From IMG/VR virus record IMGVR_UViG_3300015372_000010, positions 1-31,476 of that record: a stretch of 31,476 nucleotides of DNA, one strand, 5' to 3'. The stretch is from a virus. The notes beneath the pieces were generated by a model. It was not told the origin of the DNA, did not search any database, and saw only the letters and a program-made list of their open reading frames with translations. Made by a program: the position numbers and the translations under genes. Below, one piece after another: positions 3,760 through 27,318 of this stretch (its first letter is position 1; the number at the start of each line of letters is the position of its first letter).

Positions 3760-3764
3760 CTCCT
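3760..3764 (-). promoter_or_regulatory. Ribosome binding site deciding the 3754 start
   Basis: AGGAG on the minus strand, 5 bases before ATG 3754. It overlaps the TAG stop of the fibre gene (3763-3765), so ribosomes finishing that gene could restart here. Confidence 0.7.
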
Positions 3765-5637
3765 ACGTAAGCTTGGTACGTTTTCCGGTTGAGGTAACTA
3801 CCCACAGGTTCCCATTGCTCTCATAAAGCAATGCTCCCGAGGTAGGAGGCTGAGGAGGAACAGACATAGAGTCGACTACTAAACCGTGGGGTGATCCTCC
3901 GGTGACTCCCCGAGGTGTCCTGAGAGAAGCGTGGTCGGAAAGCATAATTTCATCACGTAGGGCATTCCACATGATACCTAAAGTGTCATTTGTCCCGAGA
4001 AGTAGACCACCTTCGATGGTATCGTCCACCTTGACTATCTCAGGAAAGACAGATGCTGCGTCTTCAGCGATCAAACCAATGTGAGGTCTAACGGCCTGTA
4101 CTTCAGCACCCGTTTGAATATTGTCCTCATACAGCGTCTTACCATCTTCGGAGAGAATGGCACGACCCTTCTCATCCCGTGCAATCTCAGGAGTATTCCA
4201 CGTCGGAGCTGGGGGACGTTCACCAGTACCATCCCACTCACCCTGATAGTTCCACGACATAGCGGTGAGTTCTGTTATACCTGCACGGTGAGTAGAAGTA
4301 CCGCGAAGAACAACTTCCTTCTCATTCTTCTTTACGGTTCGGCTGGACACCGTAAATGCAGAAGCAATGATAGGTTTGTAGGCAGCCGGGGAAAGACCCT
4401 GAACCAAAATTCCATTCGAGTCCCATACGATACCGACATCCAAAGCGGGATTGTAAAGTATAGGCTCAGTGGTACCGCCCACCACGGCCTGAAGCTTTAA
4501 ATCACAGCCAGGATAGACACTATTATCGTACTTACGGCGACGGAAAAGAACATCTCCCGACCCGTATCCTTCCCGGGCATCTAAGGTGATAGTACCACCC
4601 CATGTCGTGGCAGCATTAGAGGTAGCGTCAAATGCGGACCAAGTCTCTCCTGCGACGTGATCTGTCCACGTGCAAAAGCCTTCAGCGTCATAGACACCCA
4701 CCTTACCAGTCTGCGTAAATCCACCCTTCATGAATACACCTACACCGACACCGGCAGGGTCAGCGAAGATAGATCCGTATTGGGTACTGTTTCCATAGAG
4801 ACGCATGGTATCAGCGTTGGTGCCGTTAGGGTTAAGAACGATTCGAGTACCAGAGAAAGCTGTAGAGATACTACCAACGGCAGTGAAGTTACCCGTTGAT
4901 GCGTCAATCCAAAACGTACGGGTAGAGCCATCCGCACGAAAGGCTTGAAGACCTGCCGTAGGATGCAGCTCCACGCGGGCGCCTGTAGGAGTACCAACAA
5001 TGATACGAGAAGCGAGAACTAAATTAGCTTCGAGCTTGGTAGCCGTGACGGAACCAGCCGCTATTTTAGTAGCGGTAACCGAGTTGGCTGCGAGATCAGG
5101 ACCTGCCACCTGAGTAGGGGTACCTGTGCTCCCTACGGAAAAAGCACTTTCGGTACCACCCATATTAACTGCGGTAACGGTGACAACATAACTGATATAA
5201 TCCAGATCACTAACAACAAACTCACCAGGAACAGGGTTGATAGTACCAACGAACGTACGGACTCCAGGAGTGCTAGCACTAGCAACGTAAACATTGAGAT
5301 GACTAAAATCTGCCGGATTAGCTGACCCAAAAACATTATCACCTGCATGGGAAACAACGAGGCAACCCATTGCGGGTGTCACCTGAGGTGGCCGGGGAAC
5401 GGGGGGAGCTTGAGGATTGACACTCGTTACTGCGGTGGTTCCATCATCGTGAAAACCAATCATACCTCGATAGTGACCATCACTATCATACATAGCAATT
5501 CCTGCACCCTCTAGCGAGGAATTGCTAAGCTGTACTGTGCGAAGACCTGCCTCGACTCGGTTCATCCTCACTTCGAGGTCAGCCATATACTGAGCTATTT
5601 GCCTGCTCTCAGGATTGGGAGGAGAGACGACAACCAT
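3763..5637 (-). CDS. Tail fibre / receptor-binding protein with S74 chaperone domain
   Basis: The start is ATG 5637 (MVVVSPPNPESRQ), overlapping the hub stop as TAATG; 624 residues. Order of parts: an N-terminal helix with coiled-coil character (about 10-40), a fibronectin-III-like domain (about 83-178), a trimer-stem type repeat (DLAANSVTATKIAAGSVTATKL, about 181-203), a beta-rich shaft (about 204-425), then an intramolecular chaperone of the S74 type (about 431-565). In the last, SSRTVKKNEK places Ser431 and Lys436 at the spacing of the self-cleavage site, and HIGLIAEDAASVFPEIV is the conserved core. A further 60 residues follow the chaperone. The layout is that of a trimeric receptor-binding fibre whose chaperone may cut itself off after folding. 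Position at the end of the tail module agrees. Confidence 0.82.
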   Translation of the reverse strand: MVVVSPPNPESRQIAQYMADLEVRMNRVEAGLRTVQLSNSSLEGAGIAMYDSDGHYRGMIGFHDDGTTAVTSVNPQAPPVPRPPQVTPAMGCLVVSHAGDNVFGSANPADFSHLNVYVASASTPGVRTFVGTINPVPGEFVVSDLDYISYVVTVTAVNMGGTESAFSVGSTGTPTQVAGPDLAANSVTATKIAAGSVTATKLEANLVLASRIIVGTPTGARVELHPTAGLQAFRADGSTRTFWIDASTGNFTAVGSISTAFSGTRIVLNPNGTNADTMRLYGNSTQYGSIFADPAGVGVGVFMKGGFTQTGKVGVYDAEGFCTWTDHVAGETWSAFDATSNAATTWGGTITLDAREGYGSGDVLFRRRKYDNSVYPGCDLKLQAVVGGTTEPILYNPALDVGIVWDSNGILVQGLSPAAYKPIIASAFTVSSRTVKKNEKEVVLRGTSTHRAGITELTAMSWNYQGEWDGTGERPPAPTWNTPEIARDEKGRAILSEDGKTLYEDNIQTGAEVQAVRPHIGLIAEDAASVFPEIVKVDDTIEGGLLLGTNDTLGIMWNALRDEIMLSDHASLRTPRGVTGGSPHGLVVDSMSVPPQPPTSGALLYESNGNLWVVTSTGKRTKLT

Positions 5638-7292
5638 TAGATCCTCGCAATGAGATAGGCTTGGAGCCAGGCTTGCGCAGAGGGGGAGCCAGCTTGTTCC
5701 CACAAATCGAGAAGACGGTCATTCCATAGGCCGACATAGAGAGGACAATCGGGCCAGGTCCAATCTTCGTATATTGTCTCGCCACTCTTCATACGGTCAA
5801 GAATGTCCTGAGCCGCACGTACATCATCGGTAACGTTAGGAACCGGAGGTGTGGCAGTAGAAGAGTAGGTGAAAGAGTCGGAGCGAGCTACCTTGAGTCG
5901 AACGATCTCTGCGGCAGGTTGATAGGTGAGGGAGAGAATTCGATACCATACAGCATGAATGTCGGGAAGCCAGGGAATGATGACCTGGACAAAGATATCG
6001 TCTCCGATATCATACTCACCGATAGTGGCATTCTCATGTCTGGCATGGATAACGAGTTCGTCAATGGAGAAATGACTACCCTTGCGAAGACCCAATTCGC
6101 GGGCAGCGAGGGCGTTGGCTCTGTCCACCGTAGTGATAGTCTTATCGGTGACCACTTGCATCTTTCGTATACGGCCGCCAAAGTTTTCCGAGGCATACCC
6201 TCTAATTGTTGCCGATCCCTCACCTGCACCGATGACCAAAACTTCAGAAGCATAGGTGGTATCGCCTTCTTGAACAGGGACGATCTCTAAGACATTGTCC
6301 TCATCGAAAAGAAGTGCATCCCGGGGAGCACCGATGCGTGGGAATGCCATATCGTAATACTTGAGAACATCAGTCTTTACTGAGTTCCAACCTACTCGCT
6401 CTTTGTAATCAAAGGGAGTCTGCGTACAAAGGTTATCAATAGCCTCCCCACAATTGGGAGCTTCCCACCATTTCAGTTCATAGGGAGCAGCGGGTACATC
6501 AGTAATGAAGGTCGTACCGTCATCCTTCTTTTCTATCTTCGAATAAGCAGGAATACCCACAGTTTGATTAGAGGTGTTACTTGATACTATCACTCCCACG
6601 TTGGAGCGGGGATTAGATTGAACGTAAGTCCAAATCCTCCTCACCACTTCGAGGGGATCAATAAGAACCTCACTCATCTCACTGCCCCACGTTACATAGT
6701 GAGGAATAGATGAGAGTCCTTCACAAGAAAAATTAAGAGAAGTTTCATCATGCGCTGGAGGAAGAAAGATACCGGTAGCGCGAATCTCTCCACTGATTTC
6801 AACGTGGAAGAAATAGGCATAACCATCTAGCCCAAGTTCCTGAATCGAGGAAATTTCAGAAGGAAATGACCCCGACATAACGGTAGGACCAGAGAGCTGA
6901 GTAGTATAAGAAAAATCAGGCTGGACAGGAAGATCCCAATCTACAATCTTACCCGTTAGAATCTCTTGAGCAATGAGTCTGAAGGGAAAGGTCTGAGGTG
7001 GATAGGGATGACGAGTCCAAATGGAAGTATCAAAGGCCCTATAAGTCTCCGCTCCAAAGAGGGGAGTGATAGTTAGGTTAAGAACGACAACTTTGAAAGT
7101 CAGCTCACCCTGTACCACAAAGGTAGGAGTGGCTGTAAGAACAGTCGAAGTAGCGGCTTCTCTTACTCCGGCAACAGAAAGAGTGGGAGTAGCAGTAAGA
7201 GATACAATTACTACACTAGCAAGGGGGTTGTCCCACGTACCGGTAGCGACTTGATTCCAAGTATATGGTGCTACCTCATCCCAAGTCGCCAC
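5637..7292 (-). CDS. Tail hub protein (Gp37-like) with N-terminal SLTATPTL repeats
   Basis: 551 residues from ATG 7292, preceded by AAGGGG. The N-terminus has a Trp repeat (TWDEVAPYTWNQVATGTWDN), then two clear and one decayed copy of a 20-residue beta repeat with core SLTATPTL (about residues 25-81). From about residue 95 the protein resembles the central tail hub of siphoviruses (ReqiPepy6 Gp37-like / Gp27 type): IAQEILTGKIVDWDLPVQPD, a middle region with FDYKERVGW, and a C-terminal beta part with LAARELGLRKGSHFSIDELVI and IGDDIFVQV. Hubs close the tail tip and carry receptor-side proteins. The same repeat occurs some 26 times in the PL7 protein at 22261-25491, which is unusual for a hub. 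Confidence 0.78.
   Translation of the reverse strand: MATWDEVAPYTWNQVATGTWDNPLASVVIVSLTATPTLSVAGVREAATSTVLTATPTFVVQGELTFKVVVLNLTITPLFGAETYRAFDTSIWTRHPYPPQTFPFRLIAQEILTGKIVDWDLPVQPDFSYTTQLSGPTVMSGSFPSEISSIQELGLDGYAYFFHVEISGEIRATGIFLPPAHDETSLNFSCEGLSSIPHYVTWGSEMSEVLIDPLEVVRRIWTYVQSNPRSNVGVIVSSNTSNQTVGIPAYSKIEKKDDGTTFITDVPAAPYELKWWEAPNCGEAIDNLCTQTPFDYKERVGWNSVKTDVLKYYDMAFPRIGAPRDALLFDEDNVLEIVPVQEGDTTYASEVLVIGAGEGSATIRGYASENFGGRIRKMQVVTDKTITTVDRANALAARELGLRKGSHFSIDELVIHARHENATIGEYDIGDDIFVQVIIPWLPDIHAVWYRILSLTYQPAAEIVRLKVARSDSFTYSSTATPPVPNVTDDVRAAQDILDRMKSGETIYEDWTWPDCPLYVGLWNDRLLDLWEQAGSPSAQAWLQAYLIARI
7050..7220 (-). repeat. SLTATPTL-type repeats in the tail hub N-terminus
   Basis: Two clear units (VSLTATPTLSVAGVREAA and TVLTATPTFVVQGELTF) and a degenerate third (LNLTITPLFGAETYR), about 20 residues each. 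They match the consensus of the long array in the PL7 protein about 15 kb away. Confidence 0.85.
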
Positions 7293-7301
7293 ATCTACCC
7301 C

Positions 7302-7988
7302 TTATGGGCGCAGCCAAGCAGCGCGGAAGTGAATACACCCTGCGAATGGGTCAGTATTCTTTTGGCTACCACTATTCTGCCAAGCATAAACGTTAAGGGG
7401 TGTAGCAGCGCCAAACCGACGGGTAAAAGAAACGCTCGTTTCAATGTTGGCTGCACCGCCTGAGTTTTGAAAACTTGCGCCAAGGCGAAATGCTGCACTG
7501 TTGTCCAAGCCAATCCAGATACCAGAGGAGAAAGTAGACGCCGTTGCGATTCTGAAGCCTGCATCGATAGCCCACAAGCCCGCACGGTTTAACGTGAACT
7601 TGCCATTGGGAATGGAACCACCAGTAGCGGTGGCTCTCGTAACATCAGGAGTCGTCGTCACAGCTTGATCGAAATTCAATGGTGTATCGACACCGGTGGA
7701 AATGCCCTGTATCACCGTTTGATTATATTCACATTCGTGGACGGTACTACCGTTAGTAGGACCAATGAACTGAATCCACGCAGAGCCAGTCCAAAATGCG
7801 AACAATTGCGTATCGGTTTCAAATACAGTCTGACCAGCATATGGAGATGACGGACGCGTAGAGCTACTGCAAAAGAGAGCACCAATTTGCGAATCGACTT
7901 TCGTCATATTCGCATTGACAACGTTAACGTCACATTGTTCTGTACCAACAGGCAATACATAACCCGTACGGGTAAGCGTGGTACTCAT
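7302..7988 (-). CDS. Minor tail / appendage protein with C1q-like C-terminal domain
   Basis: 228 residues; the start overlaps the preceding gene by 4 bases (ATGA). Residues about 40-75 (RPSSPYAGQTVFETDTQLFAFWTGSAW) are a motif common in phage appendage and fibre proteins. The C-terminal half (about 105-228), with GKFTLNRAGLWAIDAGFRIA and repeated beta strands, looks like a C1q/TNF-type jelly roll, a fold often used for trimeric receptor binding. It lies between a baseplate-type protein and the tail hub. Exposure at the tail tip and a receptor role are inferred from fold and position. Confidence 0.7.
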   Translation of the reverse strand: MSTTLTRTGYVLPVGTEQCDVNVVNANMTKVDSQIGALFCSSSTRPSSPYAGQTVFETDTQLFAFWTGSAWIQFIGPTNGSTVHECEYNQTVIQGISTGVDTPLNFDQAVTTTPDVTRATATGGSIPNGKFTLNRAGLWAIDAGFRIATASTFSSGIWIGLDNSAAFRLGASFQNSGGAANIETSVSFTRRFGAATPLNVYAWQNSGSQKNTDPFAGCIHFRAAWLRP

Positions 7989-25200: not shown

Positions 25201-25491
25201 TCCTGTAGCTCGTTTCCACCACACTTCACCTGTTTGGTTAGTCGAAGTACCCTGTTTATCACTAGCGAGCTTTGCCCAACCGGTCGATGTTGTCGATGTA
25301 ACCGTGGTGGCGGTGTCAATTGAGAAAGCAACGTAAATAACGTCGCCAACTTGAGCCTCGGGTAGATTGATAACGTGCGTAGTGGAGTCTGTTTGCTGTG
25401 CACCCTGATTTCGAGAACGAACACTGACGAATTTCGGAATGGAGCGACCAAATCTAACCTTATTAGAGAAGGTTCGCCCCATTATTGCCAT
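22261..25491 (-). CDS. PL7 alginate lyase-type domain in a large repeat-containing virion-type protein
   Basis: 1076 residues, AAGGA before ATG 25491. Order of parts: a phage-type beta-sandwich N-terminal domain (about 30-228); one 20-residue repeat (about 231-252, SGSVSLTATPTLTVSG); a polysaccharide lyase family 7 domain (about 257-495); about 26 tandem 20-residue repeats (498-1012); and a 64-residue C-terminal tail. The PL7 motifs are all visible: RTELRE (Arg324, Glu326, Arg328), GQIH (Gln372, His374) and YLKTGAYNK (Tyr460, Lys462, Tyr466), the sets that build the active site in alginate/polyuronate lyases. It should cut a uronic-acid polymer by beta-elimination. It has no signal peptide, consistent with a structural protein of the particle. 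It is the first of four consecutively overlapping genes. Confidence 0.88.
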   Translation of the reverse strand: MAIMGRTFSNKVRFGRSIPKFVSVRSRNQGAQQTDSTTHVINLPEAQVGDVIYVAFSIDTATTVTSTTSTGWAKLASDKQGTSTNQTGEVWWKRATGSDAFTITSSTAEQSTHVSLAIANADDPEAVTANGAAAAAAVPPAINASRGTENYLCLVSTHTDSSAGTTQNFGAISGFDVSTTVQASTTTSAATNVQEELFLNSNGSIAPGTVSLSLAEQWVCITTVFGTLGVSAPTVSGSVSLTATPTLTVSGTVYKPPGSFFNLNNWKITVPYDGPDGDVNADEITQPTLNTYVDTQYFYLDASNQMVMDAPVNGDTTSGSTGVRTELREMDGAVESAWDKTTASRQLTVAGYFDPTNITGGSAPKKVMIVGQIHETGGTPGIYLTVDYDAVPSRLRVFKDGPGVGNLVTGFTPTDKLAFRIECTGGNVNIYGVIGNETALPAIPQFTFPASGFVEVTGSYLKTGAYNKTDTATGSTGDSIAKITYLNLNQALPVVWQATLSLTATPTLSINATRITLATVSLTATPTLTVSALLGVSASASLIGTPTLTVNGLRTAVASVSLTATPTLTVTGLRTAVSSVSLTATPTLTLDGIRTTPASITLTATPTISVSAPQLTAAASVSLIGTPTLSVDGVRIAPASISLTILPSLVIPGNLTEIASVSLLVTPTLSLDGIRTTPAAASLTATPTLSVAAQVTTPATVSLTATPTLSVNAVRITPATITLTATPTISVTAYLTLPASISLIVTPTATFLLGGLAGQVSLSATPTLTVNGLRTALPNISLIASPTLTVDATVITPTGANLSLTATPTLTVSALLTALANFGGIATPTLSVDATRITPATIQLTITPTISVTVFRAQTLSVSLIATPTLSATLGAAGASVSLTATPTIFVTPLYIARPTVLLTALPSLTVGAYLRLPATVSLTITPTLTVGFFGQTPASLALIVVPTLAVDATRYVPAALSLTVSAFLTIDGVRVTLPAIDLLITPTITLLSLRTTVSSVYLLITPTLYVKGAIEGAGPGWPIVFRVTSVDDGEEPVSSSQTKSSPSFEIQSVTNESNNVATVSKPYIDFEDVNA
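22456..24000 (-). repeat. Array of about 26 tandem 20-residue (60-base) SLTATPTL repeats
   Basis: Units follow the consensus A-[ST]-[VI]-S-L-T-A-T-P-T-L-[ST]-V-[DNS]-[GA]-x-R-[TI]-[TA]-[PVL]. Length is nearly always 20 residues, with occasional 19, 21 and 22. The units nearest the lyase are the best conserved; the last five drift (LLITPTITLLSLRTTV and similar). The alternation of small and hydrophobic residues suggests stacked beta strands. Codons vary between units, so selection is on the protein. Confidence 0.95.
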
Positions 25492-25500
25492 TACTAATCC

Positions 25501-25968
25501 TTACGCACCTTCAGAGAACCACATATAACCGCGCCCGTTACATGTTGTGGCACCAGCGGGAGTGGAAACTCTTACGCCAATACGCTGTCCTGCACCGGGA
25601 GCAAAAATTTCCCTATCAAGTGGAAGATCCTTATCAATAAGCCCACCAAACGGCTGAATCCACCAATCAGCGAGAACTTCAGATGCGGTAGGTTCGGTAG
25701 ACAGTGTAATTAATGCAGTAGTGGTAGGAGTAATAGCGTCACCAACGGGGTTAACCTTACTGATAACTCCTGTGGTGCCCGCTGCGGAGCCAATTGTTGT
25801 GACGCGGTACAATTCGACAGAGAAACCCGGTTGAGGAACGGCACTATCAAATGAGACACTCACCGTAAGGAGCTTGAAAGGGTTAGTTACGGGGTTGAGT
25901 AATACAAGAGTTTTGGTAGTAGCAGCAGGATACGACAGAGAGCCCGATTTACAAGCATAGATCGCCAT
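25501..25968 (-). CDS. Small beta-rich virion-type protein
   Basis: 155 residues with a strong ribosome site. Beta-strand rich (KTLVLLNPVTNPFKLLTVSVSFDS, GQRIGVRVSTPAGATTCNGRGYMWFSE), ending in an aromatic GYMWF segment that recalls phage structural proteins of this size. It ends 10 bases before the PL7 protein begins. A head- or tail-surface role is inferred from neighbours; no named family recognised. Confidence 0.68.
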   Translation of the reverse strand: MAIYACKSGSLSYPAATTKTLVLLNPVTNPFKLLTVSVSFDSAVPQPGFSVELYRVTTIGSAAGTTGVISKVNPVGDAITPTTTALITLSTEPTASEVLADWWIQPFGGLIDKDLPLDREIFAPGAGQRIGVRVSTPAGATTCNGRGYMWFSEGA

Positions 25969-25981
25969 CGCGACCTCCTTT
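25969..25981 (-). promoter_or_regulatory. Strong ribosome binding site
   Basis: AAAGGAGGTCGCG directly before ATG 25968. This is the closest match to the full anti-Shine-Dalgarno sequence that I found in the window, and suggests high expression of this small virion-type protein. Confidence 0.75.
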
Positions 25982-26531
25982 ACCAGTTAGCCGCGCGACT
26001 TACAGCCTGTTGTCTAAATACTGGCCTACGATTAGGTGCGGTGAACGTCAAAGTAGGTGTATTTGTATAAGCTCCGAGAGCAATTGAGGTTGTCTGATAA
26101 ACGCGAAGGGATACAGTATCCGTAGGCTTAAGGTCCGCAGGCACAAATTGTAGAGCAGCTTCCATTTCAGTTTCGGAACCTGCGGCCACAGTCACCGCAG
26201 CCCACGCACCATCCCCTTTATCAAAGGAACCTGCAACAAAGGTACCCGCGCCTAATTGTTTAGTTGTCACGGTACCATCGGCTACGCTACTCGCACCACA
26301 TTTCACTACCAATGAAGAAGCGGTGACGGCCGTATAGGCGCCACCGTTCTTGGAATACATTAACACAAATCCAGTGCTACTCGATGCCGTTGCTACCTGA
26401 AGAAGAAATCTAACCCTAAAGGTAGAAACAAGTCCTGGAGTCCATAGGGTATTAGCCGCTGCTTTCCATGAAGCACCGGATTCGGTACCGTCATCATTGC
26501 GCCCACGGTAAGAGGCTTGGGTTACTGCCAC
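25980..26531 (-). CDS. Beta-sandwich virion-type protein
   Basis: 183 residues, GTG start at 26531 with no good ribosome site. The segment FRVRFLLQVATASSSTGFVLMYSKNGGAYTAVTASS is a widely distributed phage/metagenome structural motif (F-x-L-x-Y-S-x-N-G-G-x-[WY]), followed by a second sandwich half (VSLRVYQTTSIALGAYTNTPTLTF) and a basic tail (RRPVFRQQAVSRAANW). It lies between a Gp80-like protein and another beta-rich protein. It is probably a particle surface protein; the exact place is not shown. Confidence 0.7.
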   Translation of the reverse strand: MAVTQASYRGRNDDGTESGASWKAAANTLWTPGLVSTFRVRFLLQVATASSSTGFVLMYSKNGGAYTAVTASSLVVKCGASSVADGTVTTKQLGAGTFVAGSFDKGDGAWAAVTVAAGSETEMEAALQFVPADLKPTDTVSLRVYQTTSIALGAYTNTPTLTFTAPNRRPVFRQQAVSRAANW

Positions 26532-26544
26532 AGATTAGAGAAAA

Positions 26545-26937
26545 CTAGGCCATGCCGAGAACAATAGCGCTAGCGGCAAAGGAAAGGGTATCTCCCGAGG
26601 CAGTAGTACGGCTGGAGGCCAGGTTTCCGTAAAACTTTCGCTTAGGACTACCGTTAGAATCCGTTGCATCAACGCTTGTTACAGTAGCAACAGGCATATT
26701 AGTGAAAGAAACAGTACCATTATTAGTAATTTGTCGGCTGGCAGCGGAGTTCCATCCAGCAGCGGCAATCGTTTGAAGGACATAGCCACCACCCGTCACC
26801 TTGGTTCCCGCCGTTGTGTCATTTCCGACGGCAGTACACAAGTCGAGCTTAATGGGAGCGGTCGTCGCGGGGTAGGTTGTCTTTCCTACCATTGCCTCAA
26901 GATAGGCGTTAACCTCGGTGGTGTCGAGAACGGCCAT
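26545..26937 (-). CDS. Gp80-like phage fibre / surface protein
   Basis: 130 residues, AGGAG before ATG 26937. It shows the family pattern: an N-terminal helix (LDTTEVNAYLEAMVGK), then IKLDLCTAVGNDTTAGTKVTGGGYVLQTI (family form L-x-L-x-T-A ... G-x-E-V-x-G-G-G-Y-x-R-Q), and a final strand GDTLSFAASAIVLGM. Members are small structural proteins found in many actinophages and annotated as tail or head fibre. Here it is on the head side of the genome. Confidence 0.75.
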   Translation of the reverse strand: MAVLDTTEVNAYLEAMVGKTTYPATTAPIKLDLCTAVGNDTTAGTKVTGGGYVLQTIAAAGWNSAASRQITNNGTVSFTNMPVATVTSVDATDSNGSPKRKFYGNLASSRTTASGDTLSFAASAIVLGMA

Positions 26938-26946
26938 TAGACTCTC

Positions 26947-27318
26947 CTAGTCAACCTGAAGACCGACGTTGCGGGCGTTTTCTTTCTCTTCGTCAGTCGC
27001 CAACTCCGCGAATTGACCAGAAGCATCGGCCGTGGTAAAAATCCGAGCCTGCTTATCGGTAGGCTTCTGCATTTCCTCGACGAGGGCATTCCAAAGGTCT
27101 TCATCCTTCTTACCGTCAGGACCCCAACCCTGGGCAACGGCGTCGAGTTCTTGCTTACAAACTTCACAACCCATCATTGCATGGCAATCCTTGTGGTAAT
27201 AGGCCACATTGCCATCACCAAGAGCGATTTGGTCCCTCGGAGCCTTATCTGTTTTCCCACAAGCGATACAGATACGGCTAGGTCGCTCATCGTAGCTGTT
27301 TTCGATGCCTTCGGGCAT
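26947..27318 (-). CDS. Small zinc-finger protein
   Basis: 123 residues, AAGGGG before the ATG. Cysteines and histidines are arranged CIAC (17, 20), HKDCH (42, 45, 46) and CEVC (51, 54), a two-site treble-clef or PHD/LIM-like metal-binding layout. The C-terminal half is acidic and helical (KKDEDLWNALVEEMQKPTDKQ, LATDEEKENARNVG). Function unknown; it could bind nucleic acid or protein in head assembly. Confidence 0.72.
   Translation of the reverse strand: MPEGIENSYDERPSRICIACGKTDKAPRDQIALGDGNVAYYHKDCHAMMGCEVCKQELDAVAQGWGPDGKKDEDLWNALVEEMQKPTDKQARIFTTADASGQFAELATDEEKENARNVGLQVD

Follow-up and report, generated by a model that had tools for sequence, protein, structure and literature searches.

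How does a short sequence repeat come to be shared between the tail hub of a phage and a lyase-bearing protein encoded far away in the same genome? The preliminary description of this DNA had put the two copies 15 kb apart (the measured distance is ~15.2 kb) and had offered two explanations: a duplication within this genome, or a common docking or polymerization role that could place the lyase at the tip of the tail. The window analysed here is an entire virus record of 31,476 bases, possibly a fragment, from a siphophage-type genome. The minus strand carries the structural genes, in an order that starts with terminase, portal, a group of small proteins including one resembling the Gp80/GP4 fibre I, the lyase-array protein and a peptidase, continues with a haem-peroxidase-like protein, capsid and neck genes, tape measure, and Dit-like and minor tail proteins, and ends with the hub, a protein with a weakly S74-like C-terminus and the lysis genes; several of these names derive from gene order and sequence reading, not from a family match. 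The lyase had been called a head-side enzyme, which holds for its gene position between the portal and capsid genes alone.

Some neighbouring genes deserve mention in their own right. The animal-haem-peroxidase-like protein (20222-21577, minus strand; PF03098, E 1.7e-13) has a signal-peptide-like start and lies between the peptidase and the head genes; homologous-looking genes occur in the related phages G003 (37154-38581) and G001 (5390-6808), and none was seen in the relative L071. The phrog_16701 peptidase (21564-22310, minus strand) adjoins the array gene, as it also does in G001 and G003. The gene after the hub (3763-5703, minus strand) shows a weak C-terminal match to Peptidase_S74 (endosialidase chaperone) that stays below the cut-off (E 0.0017). 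Beside the hub, the product of 7302-7988 (minus strand) is 42% identical to that of 44944-45618 in G003 (L036). The G003 counterpart adjoins the array gene, within the portal-capsid group, and appendage-type genes thus move between the two groups.

The hub protein matches phrog_1885 (minor tail/hub; E 2.2e-55) over residues 103-485, and its repeat region comprises residues 27-87 (7032-7214, minus strand). When the lyase protein served as tblastn query against the window, a single other match appeared, at 7053-7220 on the minus strand (49% identity, E 7.9e-8). A repeat model made from 21 lyase units and scanned over the window in all six frames found nothing beyond the hub (E 1.4e-6) and the lyase protein itself (E 5e-130), the next frame reaching E 0.19. 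In a shuffle test, the real hub N-terminus scored 30.3 bits and the best of 20,000 shuffles 17.8. All three approaches agree with the initial reading of two clear units and a decayed third one. The term "decayed" is correct for the window, where the TL after the TP is lost, while the third unit of the G003 hub (VYLVATPTLLAQ) retains TPTL. Judged by these comparisons, the hub and array units are homologous. All features are listed in the table.

Table. Hub, repeat and array features of the window (31,476 bases).
Feature	Residues	Position	Strand	Remarks
Hub P0001, tail hub / minor tail protein	551 aa	5637..7292	-	GTG start; adjoins Dit-like and tape-measure genes
Hub Trp-rich N-terminal peptide, ATWDEVAPYTWNQVATGTWDNPL	1-24	7221..7292	-	Conserved relative to G003
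Hub repeat unit 1, VVIVSLTATPTLSVAGVREA	27-46	7155..7214	-	22.4 bits; 14/20 identical to a lyase array unit
Hub repeat unit 2, ATSTVLTATPTFVVQGELTF	47-66	7095..7154	-	6.1 bits; 10/20 identical to an array unit
Hub repeat unit 3, decayed, VVVLNLTITPLFGAETYRAF	68-87	7032..7091	-	-0.7 bits; 7/20 identical
Hub core domain	96-551	5640..7007	-	phrog_1885 match; start point of isolate hub homologues
Array protein with PL7 alginate lyase domain	1076 aa	22261..25491	-	
N-terminal beta-rich domain	25-236	24784..25419	-	By alignment; in array proteins with and without lyase
Single repeat unit directly before the lyase domain	236-255	24727..24786	-	Repeat model, 25.5 bits
PL7 alginate lyase domain	261-480	24052..24711	-	PF08787, E 4.3e-23
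Array of ~26 units of the 20-residue repeat	497-1016	22444..24003	-	
C-terminal domain of array proteins, starting GAGPGWPIVF		22264..22443	-	Nearly invariant across four array proteins
Gp80 / podophage GP4 fibre-I-like protein, near the array gene		26545..26937	-	PF23140, E 7.5e-13

The repeat unit is 20 residues long, follows the consensus AS(V/I)SL(T/I)ATPTL(S/T)VxGxR and recurs at a spacing of mostly 20, occasionally 19-23 residues. In its profile, Leu in column 6 and Pro in column 10 are nearly invariant, and columns 4, 8, 12, and 14 are hydrophobic or small (column 8 being mostly Ala). In an AlphaFold2 model of the array as a monomer (mean pLDDT 57; 71-81 in the first 110 residues), each unit forms two strands with a break at the TP turn; a comparison of this model with PDB and BFVD gave no fold match at E<=0.001. 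The AlphaFold2 model of the hub, built from two sequences, reached a pLDDT of 31. Sequence searches of solved structures with the hub and with the repeat proteins of the mycobacteriophages Aminay and Mozy (see below) returned nothing useful, and literature searches yielded no description of the 20-residue repeat. A weak match of the consensus to phrog_584/Phage_tail_3 was taken as beta-rich similarity.

The unit was also compared with triple beta-spirals, whose consensus has hydrophobic residues at positions c, e, g, k, and m (PMC3150272); the hydrophobic columns 4, 6, 8, 12, and 14 of the unit fall on exactly these positions. Like the shafts of the adenovirus fibre and reovirus sigma1, the repeat consists of tandem two-strand units with a Pro turn and a hydrophobic spacing of 2-2-4-2. 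However, triple beta-spirals carry Pro or Gly at turn position j, whereas the Pro of our repeat occupies column 10 (position i), followed by Thr in column 11, and its period is 20 instead of 15-17 residues. Moreover, the repeat, which was compared as a monomer model alone, has no sequence homology to these shafts. Because its Pro lies one place earlier, we do not class the repeat as a triple beta-spiral. It may nevertheless work as a beta fibre shaft.

PL7 alginate lyases are characterized by the motifs RxELR, Q(I/V)H, and YxKxGxYN. The array protein contains all of them (RTELR at residue 324, QIH at 372, YLKTGAYN at 460), and its PF08787 match scores 82.7 bits against a cut-off of 29.7. It therefore shares both the domain and the three conserved motifs with PL7 enzymes such as AlgAT5 (5zqi) but, unlike in these, the domain is embedded among the repeat units of a phage structural-type protein. 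In the window and in G003, it lies behind the first repeat unit and ahead of the remaining array, and the G003 protein has three beta domains, each followed by a single repeat unit. G001, G003, and L071/G008 encode array proteins built alike, with an N-terminal beta-rich domain and ~26-30 units, and the terminases of G001, G003, and G008 are 78-83% identical to that of the window; partial copies were found in L004/G002 and L007/G004. In the close group, the C-terminal GAGPGWPIVF domain belongs to this build as well. At the same locus, between the portal and capsid genes, G001 and L071 encode array proteins without a lyase (880 and 852 aa, respectively), and the more distant phages G005 and G006 have arrays of 888-893 residues elsewhere in their genomes. 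Only one of the six other array-bearing IMG/VR records, some of which are fragments, contains PF08787, namely G003. Since PL7 is absent from the other array records and placed between units, the comparison of these genes shows the lyase as an optional insert, with the units as domain junctions. A pattern scan of bacterial genomes for the repeat gave chance matches only, and no array was found in 396 genomes of one phylum.

The Gp80-like protein near the array gene was weighed as a sign of a neck-attached lyase fibre. Fibres of phage DEV are described as forming a neck collar resembling that of GP4 (PMC10925440), and together with the Gp80-family neighbour this analogy hints that the array-protein group may be neck-attached. 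We treat the match as suggestive only, because the Gp80-like proteins are encoded near the array gene without being fused to the array.

Among isolate phages, the window-derived repeat model finds gp26 of Mycobacterium phage Aminay (E 1.4e-11, 10 domains). This minor tail protein (phrog_416) contains ~11 units of the 20-residue repeat seen in the window proteins and, as in the window hub, a W-rich N-terminal peptide precedes them (the W likeness was judged by eye). It differs in having no lyase, in its glycine-rich C-terminal domain (PF21722) and in carrying the repeats outside the hub; it matches both phrog_416 and PF21722, whereas the window proteins match neither. A related, more distant repeat is present in about 330 mycobacteriophage records. 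Minor tail proteins of the gp20/gp21/gp23/gp36 type (Mozy, Gaia, and Estes, among others) carry the related FGLxLTPxIGMxGxERYxRE with the same hydrophobic/Pro spacing, but these repeats have diverged and are tied to the window via Aminay only, the window model not being significant on them. In the fully read repeat proteins of Aminay, Mozy, Gaia, and Estes, no lyase domain was seen by eye, nor, for Aminay, by family search.

Hub homologues are encoded by 182 isolate phages. None of the eight examined at full length contains repeats: in seven, the protein starts at or close to the hub core, and that of Indlulamithi has an unrelated N-terminal region. A tblastn search of phages with the hub N-terminus, including these 182, detected no hub carrying it. 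The phrog_1885 minor tail/hub proteins of actinophages thus share with the window hub the core and the position after the Dit-like gene, but the isolate members checked are without the ~95-residue repeat-bearing N-terminal extension of the window and G003 hubs; a repeat-free N-terminus is what these members show and does not formally define the family.

A different extension is found in the lyase-less phage G006 (terminase 56% identical). Its 703-residue hub-type protein (L201 6857-8965, minus strand, corresponding to G006 22857-24965) matches phrog_1885 at residues 375-689, and its N-terminal extension comprises a beta-rich region, weakly similar to the N-terminal domain of the array proteins, and five GIPSxxAFG-type repeats of ~23 residues each that are distinct from the 20-residue repeat. 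With another short repeat in this extension, hubs of this group seem to tolerate the exchange of their N-terminal repeat spacers. The Dit-type protein of the same phage (phrog_5577/phrog_33; L201 9429-11078, minus strand, corresponding to G006 25429-27078) has ~280 extra N-terminal residues.

Relatives carry the repeat without a lyase domain, and it is therefore most likely a general building block and not an enzyme docking tag. We consider it fairly probable that it represents a beta unit used as shaft, linker, and hub spacer in tail or appendage proteins. Each 20-residue repeat would fold into two beta strands with a Thr-Pro-Thr turn, and tail and appendage proteins of this siphophage group would have three uses for it: ~26 units in a row for a long shaft, one unit for linking globular domains, and a few units for a short N-terminal spacer on the hub. 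The array protein of the window would probably be a depolymerase-bearing fibre or appendage with an optional PL7 domain between the first unit and the rest, and the three hub units would hold the conserved Trp-rich peptide, likely involved in binding or anchoring, apart from the hub core. The presence of another short repeat in the G006 hub extension is expected of such an exchangeable spacer. We infer an extended beta-shaft that is probably oligomeric (perhaps trimeric), as well as its location in the virion and the spacer function.

Alternatively, the hub and array repeats could pair by strand exchange or co-oligomerization and thereby tether the lyase fibre to the tail tip. One phage carries the unit in both its hub and its lyase protein, both repeat-bearing hubs that were found (window and G003) belong to phages with a lyase array, and five other IMG/VR records whose hub homologues have no repeat units also lack arrays. 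But two hubs from a single lineage provide no test of whether hub and array repeats co-occur; most contigs from lyase-less relatives end ahead of the hub, the G001 contig just past the gene that precedes its expected position. Moreover, arrays are retained without a lyase, which was found neither in five other array records, some of them fragments, nor in Aminay gp26, and both Aminay and G006 have arrays, yet no such units in their hub-region proteins. The units are also the fastest-changing, least conserved part of the hub. Between the window and G003, they are 38% identical, below each of the 396 equally long segments of the core, with a dN/dS of about 0.82 (60 codons from one phage pair), compared to 68% and 0.12 for the hub core, 72% (residues 1-25) and 0.16 for the Trp-rich peptide, and dN/dS values of 0.34 for the array and 0.06 for PL7, all of these ratios being approximate, with synonymous change near saturation in some regions. 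The hub units are under weak constraint, and their fast divergence argues against a specific docking surface, which should be better conserved. We therefore regard such pairing as unlikely. Of the common role proposed initially, a shared structural or polymerization function is plausible, while neither the docking of the lyase nor its delivery to the tail tip found support.

That array units were recently duplicated into the hub within this genome, or copied there by gene conversion, is improbable as well. It would account for hub unit 1, which shares 70% identity with an array unit of its own genome but only 45% with the corresponding unit of the G003 hub. However, three units also occupy this position in the G003 hub (64% identical to that of the window), between conserved flanking regions, and the hub units therefore predate the split between the two phages. 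At the DNA level, the hub repeats match array units with no more than 78% identity over 40 nt. Furthermore, the array units are conserved by position and not homogenized: for the last eight units before the C-terminal domain, identity between phages is 43-60% at corresponding positions, compared to 24-25% at different positions. The array is thus old and maintained unit by unit. The duplication suggested in the preliminary description is thus not supported. Going by these alignments, the sharing of the repeat is real and old, and a later partial conversion of hub unit 1 is conceivable.

We think it very unlikely that the hub and lyase-array repeats co-assemble as a mixed beta fibre, with the three hub units serving at the tail tip as nucleus or dock for a detachable depolymerase shaft; if true, they would constitute a repeat-coded 'socket' permitting the exchange of enzyme-bearing fibres. 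Convergence of two unrelated beta-rich linkers of similar composition is very improbable: alternating hydrophobic/Thr-Ser patterns do recur in fibre proteins and hub units 2 and 3 score weakly alone, but none of the 20,000 shuffles reached the score of the real hub N-terminus, unit 1 is identical at 14 of 20 positions, the period of ~20 is kept and three units lie at the same place in G003.

As a putative building block of shafts, linkers, and hub spacers, the repeat ties the hub decoration, the shaft-like arrays and the exchangeable lyase of uncultivated phages to minor tail proteins of mycobacteriophages. A related repeat is widespread in these well-studied phages, seems undescribed as a family and had no solved-structure match in the searches made. 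It is a concrete candidate for a fibre-shaft unit, and the domain inserted between its units illustrates how phages can acquire and lose a polysaccharide lyase.
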